A stretch of 64,000 nt of DNA from Tribonema minus (lineage: Eukaryota > Sar > Xanthophyceae > Tribonematales > Tribonemataceae). Below the pieces are notes generated by a model. The model saw only the letters and a list, made by a program, of their open reading frames with translations. It was not told the origin of the DNA and did not search any database. The stretch covers positions 52,491 through 116,490 of the forward strand of contig JAFCMP010000177.1 in assembly GCA_017506865.1 (NCBI GenBank), in the 5' to 3' direction. Shown piece after piece: positions 3,951 to 54,236 of this stretch. A program made the position numbers and the translations under genes. Numbering within the stretch: position 1 is the first letter of the stretch; the number at the start of each line of letters is the position of its first letter.

Positions 3951-5745
3951 ATGAAGTCACACCTGCTGGCCGCCTGCACTGCTGGTGACAATGAGGAACT
4001 TCAAGCCAGTAGTGGCAGCGTGCTGGTACTGCCGCGCTTGGGCCCGCCAGAACTCACGGACATCGCAGTGCCACTGCCGGCGTCACGGTTGCCGGAGCGA
4101 CGAGGCGGTCTGGGCATGCCGCTTTTGGGGCTACTGGCACCAGCCGCATACACGGCCCAGGCATGCACAACACTGCGGCCTGCAATAATTCATGCCACTG
4201 TGGCAGCAGGGGCCCTGAGGCTCGGCGCTGACGAACACGGCGCAGTCACCTGGTTCGCGCAGCACTCATGCGCAATACGCGAGGACCAGGGACTGCCGCC
4301 AATCATCGAGGCCGTGCGACGCGCTACGCGAGCGCTGACAGCTGATGGCGGCGAAAAATCATGCACAGCTGTGGCCGAGCAGCTCCCAGCATCGTTGCTA
4401 CGGTGGGCAGCAGATACGACGGCCGCAGCGTTGACGCTCCCCACTGCGGTGCAAGCGATCTACGCCGCAACTGCCGTCACGGAGACGGGGACCACTGAGC
4501 CAGCCCCACACACCCACGGCATTGTGCCTGGCGCCGAGGCGGCCGCTGCGGCGGCGACCGTACCTGGCCCTCAAGCCGCTGCCGCGGCTGCCTCTTCCAC
4601 GCCCGCTAAAACACAAACTAGCGCGGAAGAAAGCAGCTGCAGCGGCGGGCAGGAGGACGACGACGACGACTGGGAGGCCTATGCTGACGAGATCTGCAGG
4701 AAGGTAGTGCCCCGCCGCCGGCGCGGTCACTTCACGCACGGACTACAAGCCGGCCTTTCAAATGTTCTTAGACGTCAACACGAGGACTGCCTGGTGGAGG
4801 ACCCAGAGGCTGCCTCGGCTGGTGCCGTGGGCAAGCCGACGCAGGCTACACTTATTGGTGACTCGCGTGACACCAGCCGCCGCCGCCAACAGGCTAGCGC
4901 GCGGGTCCTGGCGCAGCTGCGCAGCCAGCGTGCGTCCGGGGCAATGGCGTGGATGAGCGTGCCACCCGCTGCCAATGACCGCCCGGGTGCGGCGCCCTTG
5001 TCCAGTATGGCAGCAGCCACGATGATTTTGGTTGCAATCTTTATAGACGGGTGGGGCATACAGGGCGAGGTGTGCCCATGGCGGTGCAGTGACGTGAGCC
5101 CCACCTCCACGTATGCGATCAGCTGCCCCAGCCAGCACATACGGGGGCACAACGCGACACACACTGCCCAAAAGCGGTGCCTACAGCGCATCTTGAGACA
5201 GCACCATGTCTCTATTGTCCGCAATGAGGACGCTAGCGTCTTCAAGGTACCGGGGTATCGGGGACACAGTCATTGACCCAGGGTGTCTACACTTTAGCAG
5301 TGCATACCGTAACAAGGGAATAGTGCTAGACACAAGTGTGCGCGCGCCCACAGCGAGCTCGTACCTGACAGGCAAAACAAATGCCTTGAACACGGACGGC
5401 TATGCTGCTGGGGTGGGGGAGGACGCGAAGGTCAAGCACCACACCGGCACCTTGACGTCATCTTGGGCTTTTGTGCCATTCGTGCAGGAGTCGTACGGAC
5501 GGCTGGGCAAGCAGACAAGCCTTTTTGTTAAGGAGTTGGCAATGCACTCAGCACTGTGCTCAAAGGGGGGGAAGGCAGAAGTGTTACGCAAGGCCGGGTT
5601 AGCTAAGCGTCAGATCCACATTGAGCTGAGCATATCGCTGGCGCGGGAGTTGGCGGAGCGCGTCATGGCATACACACGTGGAGCGCGAATGCTGGGCTGT
5701 GTTGCGGCGCCGGTATCCAAACTCCTAGGGCACAGCGCAGACTAG
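3951..5745 (+). pseudogene. LINE-like retrotransposon ORF, 3' part, frameshifted
   Basis: Two overlapping frames, 3951-5276 and 5206-5745, together resemble the region C-terminal to the reverse transcriptase in LINE-type elements of algae and plants. The signs are an LPERRGGLGM motif followed by AAY (residues about 48-70), a Cys/His cluster CPWRC...C...H...H near residues 375-400, and a C-terminal part with LDTSVRAPTASSY, AKVKHH, FVPFVQESYGRLG and an arginine-rich helix before the stop. The frame changes between about 5240 and 5270, so one indel breaks the protein. No polymerase domain precedes it, so the copy is 5'-truncated. A second partial copy lies at 53833-54236 on the other strand, ending in the same residues and the same 3' tail. 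Family naming is from motif memory only. Confidence 0.6.
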
Positions 5746-5824
5746 GCTGCTGCGTTGACGCAAGCTTTTCGATTGCATAGGCAACCCGGCCTCCCTTGGG
5801 CCTTTATAAATACAAGTCCATACG
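3951..5824 (+). mobile_element. 5'-truncated LINE-like element, copy 1
   Basis: The 3' boundary is set by comparison with the inverted copy at 53833-54236. Both share the sequence from the stop codon through a GCCTTTATAAATACAAGTCC tail and diverge after TCCATACG. The 5' boundary is unknown; 3951 is only the first ATG of the open frame. No poly-A tail is visible at the shared 3' end. Confidence 0.6.
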
Positions 5825-6000
5825 TACACCACTGTTCAAGCAGCAACAGCAGCGGATAAGCAGTGCCATTGACACGTACAGGTACCTACGCTTACCTACG
5901 CTTACGCTCGGCACTGTCAGCAGCGCTCCACATGGCGTACTCTGGCCGTGTCATGACACACATGGCAGAATCCAGGGGGGGGGGGCACATGGAGGAGGAC

Positions 6001-6170
6001 GTAGGGGAGGATCCCGAGATGCCATTTGGCGGCGGCGGCGTTTGAGTGGTTGTCGTTGAGACACTTTCAGAAGTCACACGACATGCAGATTCCGTACAGC
6101 AACATCAAGTCAGACCATCATCTGGGCTTTTTCGCGCCCTGAGCGAGAATTAATAAAAAGTACCTACTTG
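6001..6170 (+). repeat. Short interspersed repeat (MITE/SINE-like), copy A
   Basis: This stretch matches the reverse complement of about 27930-28097 over roughly 165 bp. Shared landmarks in order are GAGATGCCATTTGGCGGCG, GACACTTTCAGA, AGATTCCGTACAGCAA, GGGCTTTTTCGCGCCCTGAG and CGAGAATTAATA. Identity looks about 80-85% by eye. No coding capacity is apparent. Confidence 0.8.
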
Positions 6171-6525: not shown

Positions 6526-6568
6526 TTAGGGTTAGGGTTAGGGTTAGCCCTAACCCTAACCCTAACCT
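6526..6568. repeat. Head-to-head telomere-repeat junction
   Basis: About three and a half TTAGGG units run directly into about three and a half CCCTAA units, with the switch at about 6547/6548. A strand that passes from TTAGGG to CCCTAA has the polarity expected where two chromosome ends, or two telomere-capped breaks, were joined. Confidence 0.85.
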
Positions 6569-6974
6569 TGAACGGTCACACAAGCGGACTGCGCCAAATG
6601 CAGGCACGAGGTGTCATTGGGTACGGACAATGGCATACAAGTATGCACTGCAGCCAACACGACAGTTCAAGCTCCGCATCACGAACAAGCCAAAAACAAA
6701 CAGTGCAGCATGATGGTGTAGTAATAATGCCCTCGCAACACATGTGACGTCAACATACAGCAAACATCAGCAGAAGGCTCGCTCATGCGCATGTTCTCTC
6801 TGCACAGTTTCTTCAAGAGCTGATTCAGTCATGGCCTGATGAACAGTCCACGTGAGTGAGAAAGGGTCAAGAGCACACTGTCAACGAAAGAGTTGTCTTG
6901 ATTCTGATGTATGCACCCTCCGTACGTATGCCATGTATATATGAAGCATGCCGCCGTTGCTCACTGCCGAATTA

Positions 6975-8446
6975 TCACTCGCTTGACGCGTCTGCAGCAC
7001 CCGCAGCGAGCCGATCTAGAGCCAGCCGAGCTGACTGCGCTGCGTCACTATGATTGGAGCATCTGGGGATGGCATTAGCTACTGCTTTGTGGGCGCCTGC
7101 GGTGTTGAGCCGTGCTGCTGCACTTGCATCAGCGCTCAGCGCGCATATCGCTTGCAGCACCGTGGTCAACGCTTTGCTGCTGCTAAGAGCCGGTATGAGC
7201 AGCACCGCGTTCAAAAATGTTGTCGCCGCTTCACACGCTCCAGCCTCCACCAGACTGAGAGCCATGTCCTGCGAGTGTGCCTCGGCTGCTGCGGCCAGCG
7301 CTGCGAGTGCCTCCAGGCCAGGATGGTGCCAGAGCCAACTCGTATCGTTGCGCCTGTGGTGGTATTCTTTGAACAGCTGCACAGCCCTCACGACGGCATC
7401 ACATGCGCCTGCGGCGTAAAACCGGGCGCTGTCGGCAGGCGCCTTTGTCGCAAGCGCTGCGATCGCCATCGCAGCCAAGAGGACCCAAACGCATTCAGAG
7501 TCTGCGCTGAACGTCCCGCCTCTGGTGCACAGCCTGTCTACAGCCGCCATGATGGCCTCAGCGACACCCGCTGCCAGGAAGTGCGCAGCACTGCCGCCGT
7601 GATGTACCAGCGCCGCCAACGCAATGAGCGTGTGTCTGGCAGCACCATGTGCTGTAGATGCTGCGAGAGCCTCCATGAGTGCCTCGCCTGCGCCTGCATC
7701 GAGGAACTGCTGCGCAATGGCGGCGCCGACGCCACCGGTGTTGCGCTGCGTGATCCCTTCAACGGCTGACGCAGCTGCGGCCTGCAGATCCTGCTGAGTG
7801 ATGTCAGTGCGCATGGCGGCGACGACTGCTTGTGCAATCTGCGCTGCATGAAGCTGCTGCGGCAAGGTGATGTCCGCTGGCCCCAAGCAAGGCACAGCCA
7901 GAGTGTACAGGGCGTACAGCGCCTGCTTCGGCACCGTAGCGTGCTGGACATGTGCTCGCACCGCTGCAACCAGAGCATCAGTGGCGCCAACTCTCGCTAA
8001 GTGAAGTGCACGATCAACTCCAGCAGAGCCGGCACAATCAGCAACACTTGCCATTGCCACACATGCGATTGCTTGAACGTCAGCATCGGCAGCGTGTGTG
8101 TGCATGGCAGCAATCAGTGCTGTGCCGATGCCAGCGTCTTGAAATCTGCAGCAGTTTGCGGGGCAATCATCAACCAGACTGCATACTGCTCGGAGGGCTG
8201 TTGTCTGAACGGTGGCGTCAGGGAGTGGGTGACAAGAGTGGTAGCCAGCGCAGCACACGCCCCAGCCTGCCCTAAGCTGCGCCCGATGATACTAATACTA
8301 TCATCGTACGATTCGCCTGCGGTGAGCTCAGTAATAGCATGGGTAGCCCACACCTGAATGCCTGCATCCTCAGGAAACGTTCGCATCATTCGCACCACCT
8401 GTGCCTCACGCGTCAAAGCCGGGTGCAGCTGGGACCCTTCCTCCAT
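6975..8446 (-). pseudogene. Armadillo-repeat protein A, one frameshift
   Basis: The gene starts at the ATG at 8446 (MEEGSQLH...) and would encode about 490 residues of consecutive armadillo-type helices with GAGEALMEALAAS-like repeat cores. The function of this family here is unknown; armadillo arrays are protein-binding scaffolds. The N-terminal frame (8446 to about 8225) and the rest (about 8258 to 6975) are in different frames. Compared with copy B near 9160-9175, one base is missing around 8222. Downstream of the break the frame is clean to the TGA at 6975. The N-terminal half is closest to copy D, the region after LCTRGG is closest to B, and the last residues are closest to C. It is divergent from B; the 5' regions are separated by about 495 bp. 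Confidence 0.75.
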
Positions 8447-8941
8447 GATTACACCTGCTCCTCAAGCAGAAGCTGGCCGCAATGCAAAGCCCCTCGGATA
8501 GCTTGAGAAATGTTGACACCTTTGCGACGCAGTAAGATGCAGGTCAGCGCTGCTGTTTGCTGATGCCAGGAGTGCCATGAATTCTTGAGTGTTATATGAT
8601 TGTGAGACATCATGCAGCAGTCACTTGCGCTGCGGGCTCGTAGCACGGAAAGCGACTTTGTGGTTGGAAAGCGACGACCACTGCCGCCCTGCAGTTCGAG
8701 GTCAGGAAACGTGTCGACGTCAGGAAACGTGTCGAGATGAATGGTGTCGGCCGACGATGTGAGTGAGCTTACCTGAGTTACGCAGCAACCAGCCGCACAT
8801 GCGGCTACTCTTTTCTAGATCTCCGAATCTTCAAGTTTGAAGATCAGAGTTGAAGATTTTTTCTGCGTAGTTCGAACAGAGCACAGCCCAATATCTCAAA
8901 AGGCTGGTTTTTCTCAGTGAGGAGCAGAAGGAGGCTCGCTC
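8447..8941. promoter_or_regulatory. Divergent promoter region between armadillo genes A and B
   Basis: This intergenic stretch separates two outward-reading genes. It contains a near-palindromic block at about 8817-8862 rich in TCTTCAA/TTGAAGA, and a direct repeat GTCAGGAAACGTGTCGA at about 8701-8735. In reverse complement it matches the C/D intergenic region (13829-14360), not in direct orientation. That marks an inversion of the core between the two units. A promoter role is inferred only from position. Confidence 0.5.
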
Positions 8942-10436
8942 ATGGACGATGGGGCGCAGGCGCACGCGGCTTTAACGTTTGAGGCGCAGGTGGCGCGGAT
9001 GATGCGGTCGTTTCCCGCTAATGCCAGCATCCAGGTGTGGGGCGCGCATGCGATGTGTGCGCAGATCATGGACGACGTAAATGATATCGAATTCAAGGAC
9101 AGGTTGGGTCAGGCAGGGGCATGTGCCGCGCTGGTTACCGCTCTCGTCACGCACGGTCACAGCGCCACCGTTCAGACAACAGCCCTCCGAGCAGTATGCA
9201 GTCTAGTTCATGATTGCCCCGCGAATTGCTGCAGATTTCAAGACGCTGGCATCGGTGCGGCACTGATAGCTGCCATGCGCACACACGCTGCCGATGCTGG
9301 TGTTCAAGAGGCCGCATGTTCCGCCATGGCAACTTTTGCTTATAAATAATGTCCGTTCTGCAGAAGTCGATCGTGCGTACAGGACGGCGGCAGCTGGCGC
9401 CATTGATGCTCTGGCTGAAACGCTGCGAGCACACGTACAGCACCCGAAGGTGCTGCGTCAGGCCCTGTACGCACTGGGCGCCATGGTTGTGTGTCGTTAC
9501 CCGCCAGCAGACGTCACCTTGCCGCAGAAGCTTCATGCAGCGCAGGCTGCACAAGCAGTCGCCGCCGCCATGCGCACTGACATCACTCAGCAGGATCTGC
9601 AGACCGCGGCTGCGTCGGCCATTGAAGGGATCACGCAGAACAACAACGGTGGCGTCGGCGCCGCCATTGCGCAGCAGTTCCTTGATGCAGGCGTAGGCGA
9701 GGTACTCATTGAGGCGCTCACAGCGTCCACAGCACATGGCACTGCCAGATTCACGCTCAAGGCGTTGACGGCGCTGGCGCATCACGGCGGCAGCGCTGCG
9801 CAGCTTATGTCAGCGGTTGCCGCTGCGGCCATCATGGCGGCTGTCGGCAAGCTTTGCACCAGAGGCGGGACGTTAAGTGCAGTCTTTGTATGCCTATCGG
9901 TCCTCTCGGCTGCGATGTGGGCGATCGCAGCGCTTGCGACAAAGGCGCCTGCCGAGAGCGCCAGGTTTTACGCGGCAGGCGCATGTCAAGCCGTTGTGAG
10001 GGCTGTGCAGCTGTTCAAAGATGTCCACCGCAGGTCGAGTTGGTTCTGGCAGCATCCTGGCCTGGAAGCGCTCGCAGCGCTGGCCGCAGCAGCTGAGGCA
10101 CACTCGCAGGACATGGCTCTCAGTCTGGTGCAGGCGGGAGCGTGTGAGGTGGCAACGGCCGTGCTGAACGCAGTGCTGCTGGTGCCGCTTTCTGACGCCG
10201 GCTATAGAATGCTGACCTCGGCGCTGCAAGCGATATGCACGCTGAGCGCTGATGCAAGTGCAGCAGCACGGCTCAGCGCGGCAGGCGCTCGCGAAGCAGT
10301 AGCCAGTGCCATTCCCAGATGCCGTGAAGGTGATGACGCAGCTGCACGGGCGGCGCAGCTGGCTCTACACCGGCTGGCTGCGGGTGCTGCAAACGCGGCA
10401 AGCGAGCGAGGTTCATGGCGTAGCAAGCATCGATGA
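8942..10436 (+). pseudogene. Armadillo-repeat protein B, frameshift and lost stop
   Basis: The gene starts at 8942 (MDDGAQAH...). The frame runs to an early TAA at 9347-9349 and the homologous protein resumes one frame over to 10436. At the break this copy reads GCTTATAAATAATGTCC where copy C reads GCTTATACTGTCC, a net four-base insertion that creates the stop. The armadillo repeats otherwise align with A, C and D. At the 3' end, the TGA used by D is CGA here (AGCGAGCGAGG versus AGCGAGTGAGG), so the frame extends by about nine extra residues. The N-terminus is closest to C and the C-terminus to A then D, so it is a mosaic. Confidence 0.75.
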
Positions 10437-12369
10437 CAGGCCGCGTAGCACACATACGAAAGGGACAACTGTATCAGCATCAGAGCATGCACTTGCGGAG
10501 AGGGCACTTTGTCTTGCGGTAGATTTGTGATCCATGCAGTGACGCAACCGCTCGTGTTTGGCCATGACTCAAATCTGTCACCGAAAGACACTCCTGATTG
10601 AGTTTACCTGCATGCAGCTCAGCATGCTGCTGTTGTTTGGGGCTGTTGTGATATCACTGTCTGGCTGCAGAATCTGCTCGTGGTGCATGGTTGGTGCTGT
10701 CATGTTGACTGCAGAGTATCGTTACACCATCACATCTCCAGCCGCTTTCCTGACAGTACTAGTATTTGTGGGTGCAGAGCGCTTCTGGCAACAACATTAC
10801 ATGAAGTGGCATCAGCACGGAACTCCGGCTAAGGTACAGGTATCACAGCATGCTGCCTTGCCCTCTTGCCGGGCATATGTATGAGGTGTTGCAGTTACTA
10901 GTAGCGCAGTGTTTACAGACTGGATGCAATGTCTGCCTTGTTCATGGACAGCTGAGCTGACGCTATCACCTGCAGGTATGATGTCACATGTGTCAAAAAC
11001 GCTGAGCGCATGTTTGCAGCATGCTGTTTTTTAAATGATGTGTGACATCGCAGCACGCATGGGCGCAAAGCTGCGCCCAACAGGCAGTGGCAGGACTGCT
11101 GCATCACTGCACTGGTATCATGTGAACCACAGATCAATCGATTACAGCAGGGATCTGTCTGAACACTATGACTGCAACTCTTGCTGTGCCACTGCGCTGT
11201 TAGAAATGATATGGTTCTAGGCCATTATGTTCACCAGCCTCAGAGGGTGCCCCTTGTTGAGATTGAAGTTTCTTGGACAACGGTCCCATGGGGTCTTCCA
11301 GGCAGGATGCGAGGATCGCCGGGGTGCACAGCCAGCGGGCCGCTTGGCAGCATTGCTCATACAGTATTATTATAGTATGTCATTCTGCCGAATGGCAGCA
11401 GAACATGATCTAGATGTGCAGGACGTGGCAATGACAATCAGGCAAGAATATGAAAGGTGTTGCTCACTATACTGAAGCACTGTCGGATCAAGCAAGTCAC
11501 TCATGTATTCTCACTTGAGGAGCGAAAAACCCTGTATGATACATCAAGCACTGCAACTTGAGCATTGCACACTGGACACACTGGTGCGGCTAGAGATCTC
11601 CCTCACCTGAGGCACAGGGGTGACTTATTGACACCTTTTGTTGAATTGATGTTCGAAAGCGTGTGAAGACGATCAAGACGATAACCCTGAACCACATTGC
11701 CATGGTACCCAGGCAAACTAAGTCGCCGCTCTGTAGACGACGCCATGTGTGTCGTCAGCACGTCACTGCCTAGAGCCAATCCTCTGGCTTTGAAACATTG
11801 TCTTGTACATCATTATCTTATACATGTAGCAATGGCGTGCATCGGCTTCACTTCATCAGCAGCGCCCACAGCAGCGCTCACAGCACTGCACCTCCAACAA
11901 TGGTGTACCTCAAGATGCCTGCTGTGACACTGCAAATACGCAGGCGCGGCAAGCATTGTGGTGCCGCTCATTCACACACGTTGCAACCAACCTGTGTCAG
12001 ATGCAGAGTGAGGTGTGGTGGTGTACAGCTAATGACATGTGCTCTGCCGCCAACACGACAGTACGCGCACTGCATCACGAACATTCCAAAACACGCAGTG
12101 TGTGCAGCTTGATGGTGTAATGGCAATGCCGTGGCAGCACATGTGACGTCAACAGGCAGCAAACATCAGCAGAAAACGCACGTGATGTGCATGGCATTGC
12201 TCAGTCTGCACGGTTCCTTCATAAGGTTCATGGCCTGGTGTGCAGTCCACGTGAATGAGAAAGGGTCAAGAGCACACTGTACATAAAAGAGCTCTCATCG
12301 TTATTATGTATGTGCCTTCCATATGTGAGCTCTATGAAGCATGTCGAGTTGCTCGTGTTGCCACAATCA
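10437..12369. other. Duplicated non-coding flank and 250-bp spacer
   Basis: 10437-11792 is the downstream flank of B and is repeated downstream of D (15833-17272). Open frames here, for example 10558-10884, are interrupted by indels and stops in the other unit, so they are not conserved coding. 11793-12045 is spacer between the units. 12046-12369 is the downstream flank of C, matching that of A. Confidence 0.7.
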
Positions 12370-13828
12370 TTATTCGCTTGCCGCGTTTGCAGCACCTGCA
12401 GCGAGCCGATCTAGAGCCAGCCGAGCCGAATGCGCTGCGTCATCACCTTCACGGCATTTGGGAAGGGCATTAGCTACTGCTTCGCAGGCGCCTACGGCAC
12501 TGAGCCGTGCTGCTGCACTTGCATCAGCGCTCAGCCCGCATATCGCTTGCAGCACCGAGGTCAATACTTTGCTGCTGCTAGAAGCCGGCAGGAGCAGCAC
12601 CGCGTTCAAAGTGGCTGTTGCTGCCTCACACGCCCCCGCCTCCACCAGACTGAGAGCCACGGCCGAGGAGTGTGACTCGGCTGCTGCAGCCAGCGCTGTG
12701 AGTGCCTTCAGGCTCAAGGCCATCAGACGGTCATCCGAACGATCGCACTTGAGTGCCTCTACGACGGCCTCGCATGCGCCCGCCGCGGAGAGCCTGGCGC
12801 TGTCGGCAGGCGCCTTCGTCGCAAGCGCTGCGATCGCCGACATCGCAGCCGAGAGCACTCGAGCGCGTTAAAAAAGCGCCCAAGCGCGTTCAAATCCTAG
12901 AGCGGGCAGCCCGTCTTCGTTACAAAGTTTGGCGATGGCCGCCATGATGGTCTCAGCAGCGCCCGCTGCCAGGAGCTGCGCAGCACTGCCGCGGTAATCC
13001 GCCAGCGCTGTCAACGCTTGGAGCATATAGGGAGCAGCGCCGCCTGTGGTGGACGCAGCGAGCGCCTCCATAAGTGCATTGCCTGCATCCGCGTCAAGAA
13101 ACTGCTGCGCAATGGTAGCGCCGTTACCGTTGTGGCGCTCGGTCATCCTCTCAATTGCTGACGCAGCAGCGGCCTGCAGATCTTGCTGAGTGATCTCAGT
13201 GCGCATGGCGGCGACAACTGCTTGTGCAACCTGCGCTGCATGGAGCCTCTGCGGCAAGGTGATATCTGGTGGCCCGTAACCGCGCACAGCCATGGCGGCC
13301 AGTGCAAACAGGGCATGATGCAGCACCTTCGGGTGCTGTACATGTGCTCGCAGCACTTCAGCCAGAGCATCAATGGCGCCAGTTGCCGCCGACTTGTACG
13401 CACGATCGACTTCTGCAGAACGGACAGTATAAGCATGACTTGCCATGGCGGAACATGCGGCCTCTTGAACGCCAGCATCGGCAGCGTGTGTGGCGCATGG
13501 TAGCTATCAGTGCCGTGCCGATGCCAGCGTCTTGAAAGCTGCAGCAGTTCGCGGGGCAATCATCAACCAGACTGCATACTGCTCGGAGGGCTGTTGTCTG
13601 AATGGCGGCGTTGCGACTGTGCGTGACGAGAGCGGTAATCAGCGCGGCACATGCCCCTGCCTGACCCAGCCTGTATCTGAAGTCGACATCATCTACGTCG
13701 TCCGCGATCAGCGCACGTATCGCATGGACTCCCCAAACCTGGATGCTGGCATCGTTGGGAAAGGACCGCATCATCCGCGCCACCTGCACCTCACACGGTA
13801 GAGCCGCCTCGTGTGCGTGATCGTCCAT
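12370..13828 (-). pseudogene. Armadillo-repeat protein C, one frameshift and one nonsense codon
   Basis: The gene starts at 13828 (MDDHAHEA...). Two lesions are visible. Near 13494 an extra C (ATGCGCCACACACGC versus ATGCGCACACACGC in B) shifts the frame. At 12868-12870 an in-frame TAA replaces the GAA present in D (CTTTTTTAACGC versus CTTTTTGAACGA), and the same frame then continues to the stop at 12370. The three open pieces are 13828-13370, 13446-12868 and 12867-12370. Armadillo repeats fill the whole length. The N-terminal half resembles B, the middle C-terminal part resembles D (GFERA motif), and the extreme 3' end resembles A. Confidence 0.75.
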
Positions 13829-14360
13829 GAGTGGACCTCCCTCTGCTCCTCAGTGAAGAAGTCAGCCATTTTAGATATTGGACAGCTCACGAATGTGCAG
13901 CTACGGGGACTTTGTCTACTTTCGAGATCGGAAATCTTCAACTCTGAAATCTTCAAACAAACTTGAAGATTTCGGAGATCGTTGCCGCATTGCGGCGTGC
14001 TGTCTACCAGGTGAGCATTGCGGCGTGCTGTCTACCAGGTGAGCATCTCTCACATCGTCGGTCGAGACCATTCATCTTGACACGTTTCCTGACCTCGAAC
14101 GGCAGGGTGGCAGTTGTCGTCGCTTTCCAGCAACAAGTCGCCTTCCGTGCTACGAGCCGCAGCGCAAGCGCCTGCAGTGACTGCTGCATAATGTCTTACA
14201 ATCATTTCACTCTCAAGAATTCCTGGCACTCCTGGCATCAGCAAACAGCAGCGCTGACCTGCATCTTACTGCGTCGCACCAGCAGGTCTCAACATTTCTC
14301 AAGCTATCCAGGGAGCTTTTGCATCGCGGCCAGATTTCTGCTTTAGGAGCAGGTGCAATC
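13829..14360. promoter_or_regulatory. Divergent promoter region between armadillo genes C and D
   Basis: Holds an inverted repeat at about 13925-13980 (GATCGGAAATCTTCAA...TTGAAGATTTCGGAGATC) that could fold into a hairpin, and an exact 28-bp tandem duplication (13988-14015 and 14016-14043) ending in CAGGTGAG. It is the reverse complement counterpart of 8447-8941. Confidence 0.5.
13988..14043 (+). repeat. 28-bp exact tandem duplication
   Basis: Two abutting copies of a 28-bp unit that ends TACCAGGTGAG, which resembles a 5' splice site. No coding exon was recognised next to it. Confidence 0.85.
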
Positions 14361-15832
14361 ATGGACGAAGGGCCCCAGCTACATGCGGCTGCGGCGCGTG
14401 AGGCACAGGTGGCGCGGATGTGCGAACGTTTCCCAACGATGCCAGCATCCAGGTGTGGGCTGCCCGTACTATCAGAGAGCTCACCGCGGATGAAGTATAT
14501 GGTAGTACCATCAGGCGCAGCCTAGGGCAGGCTGGAGCATGTGCCGCGCTGGTTACTGCTCTTGCCACCCACCTCCCTAACGCCACCGCTCAGATAGCAG
14601 GCCTTCAAGCAGTACACGCCCTAGCTGAAGGCTGCACCACCAACTGCATCATGTTCCAAGGCACTGACATCGGCACGGCACTGATAACAGCCATGCGCAC
14701 ACACGCTGCCGATGCCGGTACTCAAGTAGCCGCATGTACGGCGATGGCAAGTCTTGCTAATGCTTCCGGTTCTGCAGGAATTAGTTTTGCTGTTCAGTTA
14801 GCGAGATTCGGCGCCACTGATGCTCTGGTTGCAGCGGTGCGAGCACATGTACAGCACCCGATGGTGCCGAGCCAGGCCCTGAACGCTCTGTGCGCTCTGG
14901 CTGTGCCTTGCTTGGGGCCAGCAGACGTCACTTTGCCGCAGCAGCTTTACGCAGCGCAGTTCGTGCAAGCGACTGTCGCTTTGATGCGCACTGACATCAC
15001 TCGGCAGGATCTGCAGTCCGCGGTTGCGTCGGCCACGGAAGGGATCACGCAGGACAACAACGGTGGCGGCGCCGTCGCAATTGCGCAGCAGTTCCTCGAT
15101 GCAGGCGCAGGCGAGGCACTCATGGAGGCGCTTGCAGCGTCCACGGCCAGCTACGCTGCTGCCTCTGCACTCAGTGCGCTGGCAGCGCTGGCGCATCACG
15201 GCGGCTGCGCTGCGCAACTCCTGGCAGCGGGCGCCGCTGAGGCCATCATGGCGGCCATCGCCATACACTGTAATGAAGGCAAGCTGCCCCCTTCAGGATT
15301 TGAACGCGCTCAGCTGCTTTTTGAACGAAGTCGAGTGCTTACGGCAGCACTATTGGCGATCGCAGCGTTCGCGGCGAGTGCTCCTGCCGACACCGCTAGG
15401 CTCTCAGCGGCAGGCGCATGCGAAGTCGTCGTGAAGGCGCTGCAGTGTGATGCTTTAGGTAGGTGTTCGCTGGACTTGAGCCTCAAGGCGCTCGCAGCGC
15501 TGGCCGCAGCAGCCGAGTCACACTCCCGGGCCGTGGCTCTCAGTCTGGTGGAGGCAGGGGCGTGTGAGGTGGCAACAGCCACTTTGAATGCGGTGCTGCT
15601 CATGCCGCTTTCTGGCAGCAGCTTAGTATTGGCCTCGGTGCTGCGAGCGACATGCGGGCTGAGCGCTGATGCAAGTGCAGCAGCGCGGCTCACCGCGGCA
15701 GGCGCTCGCGAAGCCGTAGCCAATGCCATTCCCAAATGCCGTGGAAGTGATGACGCAGCAGCACGGGCGGCGCAGCTGGCTCTACACCGGCTTCAAGTTG
15801 CTGCAGGTGCTGCAAACGCGTCGAGCGAGTGA
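14361..15832 (+). pseudogene. Armadillo-repeat protein D, nearly intact, one early frameshift
   Basis: The homologous start is the ATG at 14361 (MDEGPQLH...). The frame breaks after about 19 codons: this copy reads CGGATGTGCGAACG where B reads CGGATGATGCGGTCG, so one A is missing near 14419. From about 14420 to the TGA at 15832 a single 470-residue frame of armadillo repeats is open. An internal ATG at 14420 could give a shorter intact protein that lacks only the first roughly 20 residues, so this copy might still be functional. The N-terminus resembles A and the C-terminal half resembles C. Confidence 0.75.
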
Positions 15833-17529
15833 GGTTCATGGCGTAACAAGCATCGATGACAGGCTATGTAGCACACATAGGTACAGAAGGGACAATTGTA
15901 TCAGCATCAGAGCATGCACTTGCGGAGAGGGCACTTGTTTTGCGAATCCAGTAGGTTTGTGACCCATTCAGCAATGCCACCGCTCATGTTTGGGCCATGA
16001 CTCAATGTGTCACTGTAAGACACTCCTGTTTGATTCCACCTGCATGCATGTCAGCATGCTGCTGTTGTCTCTGTGTCATTCGGGGCTGTTGTGATTTAAC
16101 TGACTGGCTGCAGCATCTGCTTTTGGATGATCGTGGTGGGTTGCTTTAGATTGCTGGCGGCGCATTGCTGGTGCTGTCATGTTGACTCAAGAGTATGGTT
16201 ACACCATCACATTTCCAGCCGTTTGCCTGACAGTACTAGTATTTGTGGGTGCAAAGCGCTTCTGGGAACAACTTACATGAAGTGGCATCAGCACGGAGCT
16301 CCAGGCTGCAGGTACCACAGCATGCTGCCTTGCCCTCTGGCTGTTGATCATCATAAATGTGCGTAGGTGGTAGTATGGTGTGTACAAATTGGATGCCACG
16401 CCTGCCTTGTTCACGGGCTACTCGGCAGCATCATTGCTACTGCCGAATGGCAGCAGCACATGATCTAGATGATCACCTGCAGGTAAGCTGTCACATGTGT
16501 CAAAAGCATTGTAGCGCATGTTTATGGCATGCTGTTCGCAATGATGTGTGACAGTGCAGCGCACACGTTTGCCGAGCTGTGCCCAACAGGAATTGGCATG
16601 ACTGCTGCGTCACTGCATTGGTATCATGTGAACCACAGATCAATTGATTACAGCACGGATCTGTCTGAACATTATGACTGCAACTCTTGCTGCGCCACTG
16701 TGCTGTGGGAAATGATATACTCTTAGGCCATTGTGCTCACCAGCCCCAGAGGATGCCCTTATTGAAGTTAAAGTTTGCTGGACAACGGTCCCATGGGGCT
16801 CCCAGGCAGGATGAGCGGACCGCCGGGGTGCACAGCCAGCGGGCCGGTCGGCAGCATCGCTCATACTGCCGTTGGCAGTAGCACTATAGATGTGCGGGAC
16901 TTGGCAATGGCGTCGCTGGCGAGAGTGTGATATGTGTTGATCACTACACTATAGCACTGTGTCACGGTGATCAAGCAAGTCACTCAGTTTCTCACTTGAG
17001 GGGCGAAAACCCTGTATGATATATCAAGCACTGCAACTCAAGTATTGCGCTGGACACACTGGTGCGGCTAGAGATCTCCCTCACCTGAGGCACAGGGGTG
17101 ACTTATATTGACACCTTTTGTTGAATTGATTTTAAAAGCGTGTGAAGACGATCAAGACGACAAGTACCCTGAACCACATTGCCACGAAACCCAGGCAAAC
17201 AAAGTCGCCACTCTGTAGACGACACCATGTGTGTCGTCAGCACGTCACTGCCTAGAGCCATCCTGGCTTTGAAAGACATAATAAGCGTACATTAACTTCC
17301 CTGCTCTTCTGTTGCACGTCAAAGTCAGCTTTTTCAAATGATTTTTGCCTTTCTTTCAAGTCACAACCGGTGACTCGACAACTTCTTTTTTTCAAATATG
17401 CCAACTGTCACTGGTGGTGTATGCACGTGCTCTTGTCTGCAGACGACTGCCAGACGTTCTGCATACACAGCTTTTAGGTACAAACTTCCATAGCATCGTT
17501 GCCAATCCTCTACTGAAGCGGCACAGACG
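15833..17529. other. Duplicated flank and upstream region of the TPR/HhH gene
   Basis: 15833-17272 repeats the flank downstream of gene B, with scattered indels. 17273-17529 is unique and precedes the next gene. No coding frame is conserved between the two copies of the flank. Confidence 0.6.
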
Positions 17530-53832: not shown

Positions 53833-54236
53833 CGTATGGACTTGTATTTATAAAGGCCCAAGGGAGGCCGGATTGCCTATGCAATCGAAAAGCTTGCGTC
53901 AACGCAGCAGCCTAGTCTGCGCTGTGCCCTAGGAGCTTGGACACCGGCGCTGCAACACAGCCCAGCATTCGTGCTCCGCGTGTGTACGCCATGACGTGCT
54001 CCGCCAACTCCCGCGCCAGCGATATGCTCAGCTCAATGAGGATCTGACGCTTAGCTAACCCGGCCTTGCGTAACACATCTACCTCCCCCCCCCCCCTGAG
54101 CACAGTGCTGAGTGCATTGCCAACTCCTTGACAAAAAGTCTTGTCTGCTTGCCCAGCCGTCCGTACGACTCCTGCACGTATGGCACAAAAGCCCAAGATG
54201 ACGTCAAGGTGCCGGTGTGGTGCTTGACCTTCGCGT
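53833..54236 (-). mobile_element. LINE-like element, copy 2, strongly 5'-truncated
   Basis: Matches the last roughly 400 bp of copy 1 (about 5428-5824): AKVKHHTGTLTSSWAFVPYV, ESYGRLGKQT and the C-terminus ending LLGHSAD, then the same 3' tail. A C-run length change near 54083-54092 shifts the frame relative to copy 1. Severe 5' truncation with an intact 3' end fits target-primed integration of LINE-type elements. Confidence 0.8.

Follow-up and report, generated by a model that had tools for sequence, protein, structure and literature searches.

A tandem duplication of a head-to-head armadillo-type gene pair in Tribonema minus, with one inverted core and mosaic genes

Three described systems come closest to the locus reported here. 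In the section of the Caenorhabditis study that we draw on, divergent paralogous gene pairs lie head-to-head, duplicate as an entity, including as direct repeats, and resemble each other in the first parts of the genes while the C-terminal parts diverge (PMC1803023). The portion of the work on the human Y palindrome P6 used here describes arm-to-arm conversion in kilobase tracts and rare crossovers within a chromatid, detected as inversions (PMC3723533), and the part of a yeast study on template switching between short inverted repeats used here describes arm homogenization, spacer inversion and an effect on coding sequence (PMC8604942). All of these features have counterparts at a locus of the alga Tribonema minus. 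Here, we analyze 64,000 nucleotides of its genome (contig JAFCMP010000177.1, positions 52,491 to 116,490 of the forward strand; hereafter, the window), in which the region from 6.6 to 17.3 kb consists of two direct units of ∼5.4 kb, each with a head-to-head pair of armadillo-type genes (A and B in unit 1, C and D in unit 2). The four genes are three-block mosaics and the core of unit 2 is inverted. The history that we favor, with a probability of roughly 0.85, comprises a tandem duplication of the pair, a crossover with a conversion tract between the arms of unit 2, and a conversion without crossover between the arms of unit 1.

A BLAST search of the region against the window gave matched ends of the two units spaced 5385 to 5479 bp apart. 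Thus, the tandem direct units of a preliminary description of this DNA, each holding a divergent gene pair, stand, while their size is 5.4 kb rather than 5.2 kb. In their outer parts, the units align in the direct orientation (6644-8421 with 12040-13806, and 8940-11795 with 14359-17274). By contrast, 6975-10405 matches 15832-12374 in one collinear reverse-complement alignment of 3569 columns at 77% identity that spans the intergenic core, bearing out the earlier claim that one core is the reverse complement of the other. The core is 495 bp long in unit 1 and 533 bp in unit 2, and in both units inverted arms surround this spacer (A/B, 80.7% over 1491 columns; C/D, 77.5% over 1437 columns). The orientation of the spacer differs between the units, while the flanks agree. 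Arms and flanks are of two types, L (left) and R (right), and the features are as follows, with contigs C511 and C548 carrying further pairs.

6644-6974, minus strand: L outer flank of unit 1, 3' of gene A; direct match to 12040-12374 and to the L flanks of the C511 and C548 pairs.
6975-8446, minus strand: gene A, armadillo-type, frame broken; L type at flank, core and most of the N-terminal half.
7216-7824, minus strand: putative conversion zone of unit 1 in gene A; 52/60 informative sites pair A with B and C with D; partner in gene B at 9560-10162.
8447-8941, no strand: intergenic core of unit 1, in the orientation taken as ancestral; reverse complement of the unit 2 core, with the L promoter side at A and the R side at B.
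8942-10436, plus strand: gene B, armadillo-type, frame broken; R type at the N-terminal half and 3' end.
9560-10162, plus strand: putative conversion zone of unit 1 in gene B, from the same class of sites and the tree; copying direction uncertain.
10437-11795, plus strand: R outer flank of unit 1; direct match to 15833-17274.
11907-12369, minus strand: L outer flank of unit 2, 3' of gene C; matches the L flanks of unit 1 and of the C511 and C548 pairs.
12370-13828, minus strand: gene C, frame broken; R type on the core side and in the N-terminal half, L type from ∼13007 to the 3' end.
13007-15752, no strand: inferred inverted segment of unit 2, approximate, between the switch points in C (∼13007) and D (∼15186 to ∼15752); window coordinates are interpolated from alignment columns, and the spread on the D side is the conversion tract.
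13829-14361, no strand: intergenic core of unit 2, inverted relative to that of unit 1 by BLAST and cross-pair comparison.
14362-15832, plus strand: gene D, frame broken; L type on the core side and in the N-terminal half, turning R type near 15750.
15833-17274, plus strand: R outer flank of unit 2; BLAST match to the R flank of unit 1.

Several lines of evidence support that the relationships among the four genes change along their length. First, in an alignment read outward from the core, 286 quartet-informative sites each favor one of the three pairings of A, B, C and D, and a three-state segmentation (concordance 0.70 and switch rate 0.01, both set by us) divides them into three blocks. 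The core and N-terminal half pair A with D and B with C (85/94 sites; A 8620-7856), the middle pairs A with B and C with D (52/60 sites; A 7824-7216), and the 3' end with the flank pairs A with C and B with D (112/132 sites; A 7190 outward). The informative sites form 59 runs as against a mean of 185.8 (SD 7.7, minimum 159) in 1000 shuffles of site order. Second, approximately unbiased (AU) tests on 13 close copies from the genome rejected AB, CD, AC and BD clades in the core and N-terminal half (p 0.000127 or less), AD, BC, AC and BD clades in the middle (p 0.00104 or less), and AD, BC, AB and CD clades at the 3' end (p below 1e-50). Third, a 24-column gap is confined to C, D and the C511 copy E3L among the 13 copies, and A lacks it despite grouping with E3L to either side of it; this distribution is evidence, independent of substitutions, for sharing both between A and B and between C and D. 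Fourth, the Kimura two-parameter distance between A and B is 0.139 in the middle as against 0.319 in the N-terminal half and 0.585 at the 3' end, and the corresponding values for C and D are 0.224, 0.340 and 0.523. The preliminary description had proposed this three-way mosaic, with trees zone by zone as its check; the mosaic is upheld, and the trees rule out a single consistent topology. Its pairings of A with D and B with C at promoters and N-terminal halves, and of A with C at the 3' ends, hold for the sites and for larger groups and fail as strict sisterhoods, mostly because A groups with E3L. Thus, in the core and N-terminal half, a strict AD pair is weakly rejected (AU p 0.0245) and BC is absent from the best tree, yet not rejected (AU p 0.39); at the 3' end, AC is also absent from the best tree and not rejected (AU p 0.162), once more owing to the grouping of A with E3L. 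Firm support is found for the larger groups: A and D fall with left-type copies at the core and N-terminal half (support 100/100), and A and C do so at the 3' end (100/99). In the middle, A and B are sisters over columns 1300-1700 (100/99), and the five R references form a group (100/99) that shuts out A, B, C and D alike.

To give this mosaic a direction, other copies are needed. We searched the genome (158 Mb, 554 contigs) at the DNA and protein level, and nine further close copies were usable: gene pairs on C511 (U3) and C548 (U4, U6 and U7), and a single R-type gene on C548 (U5; C548:346001-355000), for which BLAST matched no L-type partner in the fetched stretch. Together with A to D, these make up the 13 rows of the trees and alignments; a 0.93-kb fragment on C544 and C430, more distant copies on C24 and weaker matches among the 67 family matches of the protein search were left out. 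By BLAST, in each of U3, U4 and U6 one gene has the A-type flank and its partner has flank sequence of the B type; in U7, the A-type side was matched by BLAST and the other side was assigned via trees. L-L and R-R pairing runs unbroken from core to flank in 6/6 comparisons among these four pairs (from 126/186 to 275/299 concordant sites). Unit 1 agrees with all four at the core, N-terminal half and 3' end, the exceptions being the middle zone and two short stretches against U7; its core has the same orientation relative to the flanks as theirs, and the L side of this core also matches the C511 core. By contrast, in comparisons with all 5 other complete pairs, unit 2 is crossed at the core and N-terminal half, and its flank is uncrossed. 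From these comparisons, in which the other pairs are uncrossed and unit 2 is crossed, we conclude that unit 1 keeps the ancestral orientation and that the core was inverted, as a derived state, in unit 2.

We suggest that the head-to-head pair was an imperfect palindrome whose L and R arms were old, distinct lineages, and that it spread as a unit, being duplicated here in tandem. In unit 2, intrachromosomal recombination between the inverted arms would have ended in a crossover, inverting the core and both N-terminal halves, and ∼600 bp beside the crossover would have been copied from arm to arm, most likely from the L arm. The outcome would be a set of reciprocal chimeras, C with an R promoter and N-terminal half and an L 3' half, and D with an L promoter and N-terminal half and an R 3' end; the past inversion gave the 3' end of each type a promoter and N-terminal half of the opposite type. 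Arm-to-arm recombination in unit 1, here without crossover, would have homogenized A and B over ∼600 bp. A clean crossover places both switches at one point. Compared with four other pairs, however, the switch from R to L in C is at columns 1289-1328, and the one from L to R in D is at columns 1827-2056. These switch points lie ∼600 bp apart, an offset that fits a crossover together with a conversion tract of ∼500-750 bp. The preliminary description had proposed duplication, inversion of the core and conversion within each palindrome, which remains the best-supported history; the other pairs now place the inversion in unit 2, and the account is refined in that this inversion and the zone in which C and D are alike can be one event. 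We infer such a single event, the directions of copying given here, and recombination rather than template switching as the cause.

The zone of likeness between A and B in unit 1 spans columns ∼1060-1700, without inversion, and its first part looks L and its later part R, by small margins. Copying may, therefore, have run both ways, likely from A to B at columns ∼1100-1350 and from B to A at columns 1400-1700, the differences per window being small. Copying from A to B only is doubtful, as A looks R type at 1400-1700 and has the 24 columns missing in C, D and E3L. After normalization by a panel of 12 pairs, which is rough because the panel ratios are uneven between zones, the middle-zone distance is 0.56 for A-B and 0.91 for C-D, and the homogenization of A and B looks youngest.

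The same normalization gives between-unit distances of 1.18 for A-D in the N-terminal half versus 0.98 for A-C at the 3' end, and of 0.62 for B-C versus 0.63 for B-D. The core and flank of unit 2 are, thus, about equally far from unit 1, as predicted by a plain inversion and not by a later copy-in from unit 1. This bears on the alternative that best withstands the data, in which a single long ectopic conversion tract, or a template switch, copied in inverted orientation from another pair, replaced the core and N-terminal halves of unit 2, and no physical inversion took place. All arms are homologous, and the L arms of A and the C511 pair are mutually closer than either is to unit 2, so that exchange between loci did occur. 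However, the sequence on the core side of unit 2 does not resemble unit 1 more than the flanks do and bears no sign of a later copy from unit 1, and the tract would need ∼2 kb or more and would have to cross the core, where the L and R sides are unlike. We consider this overwriting unlikely. Exchange between arms of different units was set aside by reasoning, for which some arm combinations were worked through: a crossover between A and D would give chimeric A and D and whole B and C with swapped flanks, unlike the arrangement observed, and a crossover between C and D fits.

Several observations weigh against the history of duplication, unit 2 crossover and unit 1 conversion, or blur its details. 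The arrangement is known from the assembly alone. The sisterhood of C and D in the middle zone has moderate support (88/90). Unit 2 has one short uncrossed stretch against U3 within its crossed part (columns 644-711, 7/8 sites), unit 1 has the two short odd stretches against U7, and the types are blurred at columns 600-800. In 11/24 windows E3L, the nearest L reference, itself resembles an R reference slightly more than it does another L reference; this ambiguity makes the L and R calls in the middle zone, and hence the direction of copying, weak. The C-D tract, at 0.91, falls between the R-side (0.62-0.63) and L-side (0.98-1.18) distances between the units, and the tandem duplication may have come before or after the unit 2 event, partly also because A groups with the C511 copy on the L side. 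An inversion that predates the tandem duplication, with unit 1 later flipped back, could also be accommodated. Finally, the L-side sequence of A resembles the C511 copy more closely than it does unit 2, so that exchange between loci acted in addition to the events within units.

All four window genes are interrupted in the assembly. Read from the shared ATG, 11/13 copies hit a stop between codons 46 and 393, and only the C511 pair (C511:138001-148000) reads through, with its copy F3R ending ∼9 codons early. A has lost 1 bp near codon 75 and stops at codon 111; B has a 4-bp insertion and a TAA at codon 136; C has a 1-bp insertion plus an in-frame TAA further on; D has lost 1 bp and has a TAG at codon 55. 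The lesions, one frameshift in each of these genes and one in-frame stop in C, are, thus, few, and across the copies nearly all lie at private sites, except for an insertion at column 782 in C (1 base) and the copy M7L (2 bases). In the copy G4L, a TGA lies within a 6-base insertion. The ratio of nonsynonymous to synonymous substitution rates (dN/dS) between copies is 0.46-0.65 in 19 comparisons. In eight pairs, the coding sequence (∼1560 columns) contains 1-4 gaps per pair that are not a multiple of three, and the 3' flank (450 columns) contains 5-9 gaps per pair, of which 3-8 are not a multiple of three. If the lesions are not sequencing errors, which the 1-base changes could be, these data suggest that the frames were kept by selection for most of their history and lost recently; they were probably broken late, each copy by its own lesion. 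Introns do not account for the interruptions, as the insertions and losses comprise 1, 2, 4, 6, 8 and 16 bases and vary in position. Elsewhere, four distant family matches (one on C123, one on C53 and two on C542) lie in open frames of 534-575 amino acids without a stop, and other distant matches, e.g., those on C148 and the second on C123, hold one stop.

These broken frames make a present role of the locus in protein diversity unlikely. That the pairs act as a reciprocal domain shuffler, in which crossovers between inverted arms exchange promoter and N-terminal half between two old lineages without moving the flanks, that this took place when selection still acted on the genes, and that both orientations segregate in natural populations, seems to us improbable. 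Still less credible is a core that flips repeatedly, so that both orientations coexist and switch promoters or make new protein combinations, a role close to the protein diversity or switched expression that the preliminary description had envisaged and that our data do not support. Each unit does have palindromic arms and at least one flip occurred in the past, and the part of the P6 report used here records three independent inversions in the sample studied (PMC3723533). However, only one of six complete pairs has a flipped core, a single assembled copy of the locus was found, with no second copy in the assembly, and all four genes are broken. Moreover, the arms are old and divergent, with 77-81% identity and longest perfect arm-to-arm matches within a unit of 42 bp (A/B) and 33 bp (C/D), and do not support a presently invertible switch; frequent flipping today is, on these sequences, unlikely. 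An assembly error is very unlikely because, hard as repeated inverted copies are to assemble and although the assembly is the only source for the arrangement, the longest perfect match between the unit 2 arms is 33 bp, and the type switches of C and D lie at separate positions in diverged sequence, where an assembler has little reason to make a join.

The proteins are identified by predicted fold rather than by curated profiles. With window sequences only, the best of five AlphaFold2 models of the open frame of D is an all-helical solenoid (predicted local distance difference test score, pLDDT, 72.9; predicted template modeling score, pTM, 0.71); the other four models reach 51.9-63.1. In a Foldseek search of the PDB, an engineered protein took ranks 1-3, followed by a designed armadillo protein, importin alpha (Kap60p) and beta-catenin, with template modeling scores on query length of 0.57-0.70 in the top five rows. 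D is, thus, predicted to fold as an armadillo-type solenoid. No Pfam family reaches its cut-off for the family proteins: ARM_ARMC5 stays below its cut-off of 79.9 with 29.3 bits for D, 17.6 for B and none for A, and ARM_LRRK2 scores 13.3 against a cut-off of 26.2 (E 0.025) for an intact C511 copy. A profile of five family members searched against solved structures matched two designed armadillo proteins (E 2.9e-6 and 1.2e-5). The proteins, therefore, resemble the armadillo solenoids importin alpha, beta-catenin and the designed proteins in predicted fold and weak profile matches, and differ in that no Pfam family covers this subfamily at cut-off. Armadillo solenoids usually bind peptides. A limited literature search on algal armadillo families and head-to-head chimeric genes returned no title on the present family.

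Other observations concern the surroundings of the array and its relatives. The same 0.93-kb family fragment occurs, with equal scores, on C544 (769795-770721) and C430 (2680-3606); C430, of 14.8 kb, is possibly a redundant contig. Close to the array, outside its left end, a telomere-like palindrome at 6526-6565 consists of TTAGGG repeats that run into CCCTAA repeats. The pattern has 37 strand matches in the genome at ∼33 distinct places, and the pattern read backwards has 0; its occurrences look like one class of interstitial, head-to-head telomere motifs. A short dispersed element lies at 5899-6163 (1774 first-look candidates; among 40 scored, 39 other copies have 97-98% identity and one has 91%), and further copies are close to members of the armadillo family on C544/C430 and C548. 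For an element of such high copy number, proximity to family copies proves little, and we rejected a special link between it and the array. An inverted repeat of 404 columns with 95% identity, its copies 48 kb apart at 5423-5824 and 53833-54236, is perhaps a transposable element. The light-harvesting family PF00504 has 92 matches in the genome, as befits a photosynthetic eukaryote. Of two light-harvesting proteins searched against solved structures, one gave no clear lineage and the other gave no match at E 1e-10.

The locus also differs from the described systems. In the Caenorhabditis pairs, arms and intergenic arms are often nearly identical, and core inversion is unmentioned in the section of that report used here (PMC1803023), whereas the core in T. 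minus is not palindromic, the arms are 77-81% identical and one core is inverted. In the P6 data used here, arm similarity exceeds 99.9% and conversion is rapid (PMC3723533); here, the events are few and old and the arms diverged. The yeast repeats, in the part of the study used here, are short and up to five neighboring residues change (PMC8604942), as against kilobase arms here. The locus leaves the known mechanism unchanged; it is a very clear and well-preserved instance of an already known event, palindrome inversion with gene conversion. Its value lies in a readable record of both outcomes of recombination, with and without crossover, in adjacent units and polarized by four further pairs, and it illustrates that reciprocal swaps of promoters and N-terminal halves can occur within a divergent gene pair.

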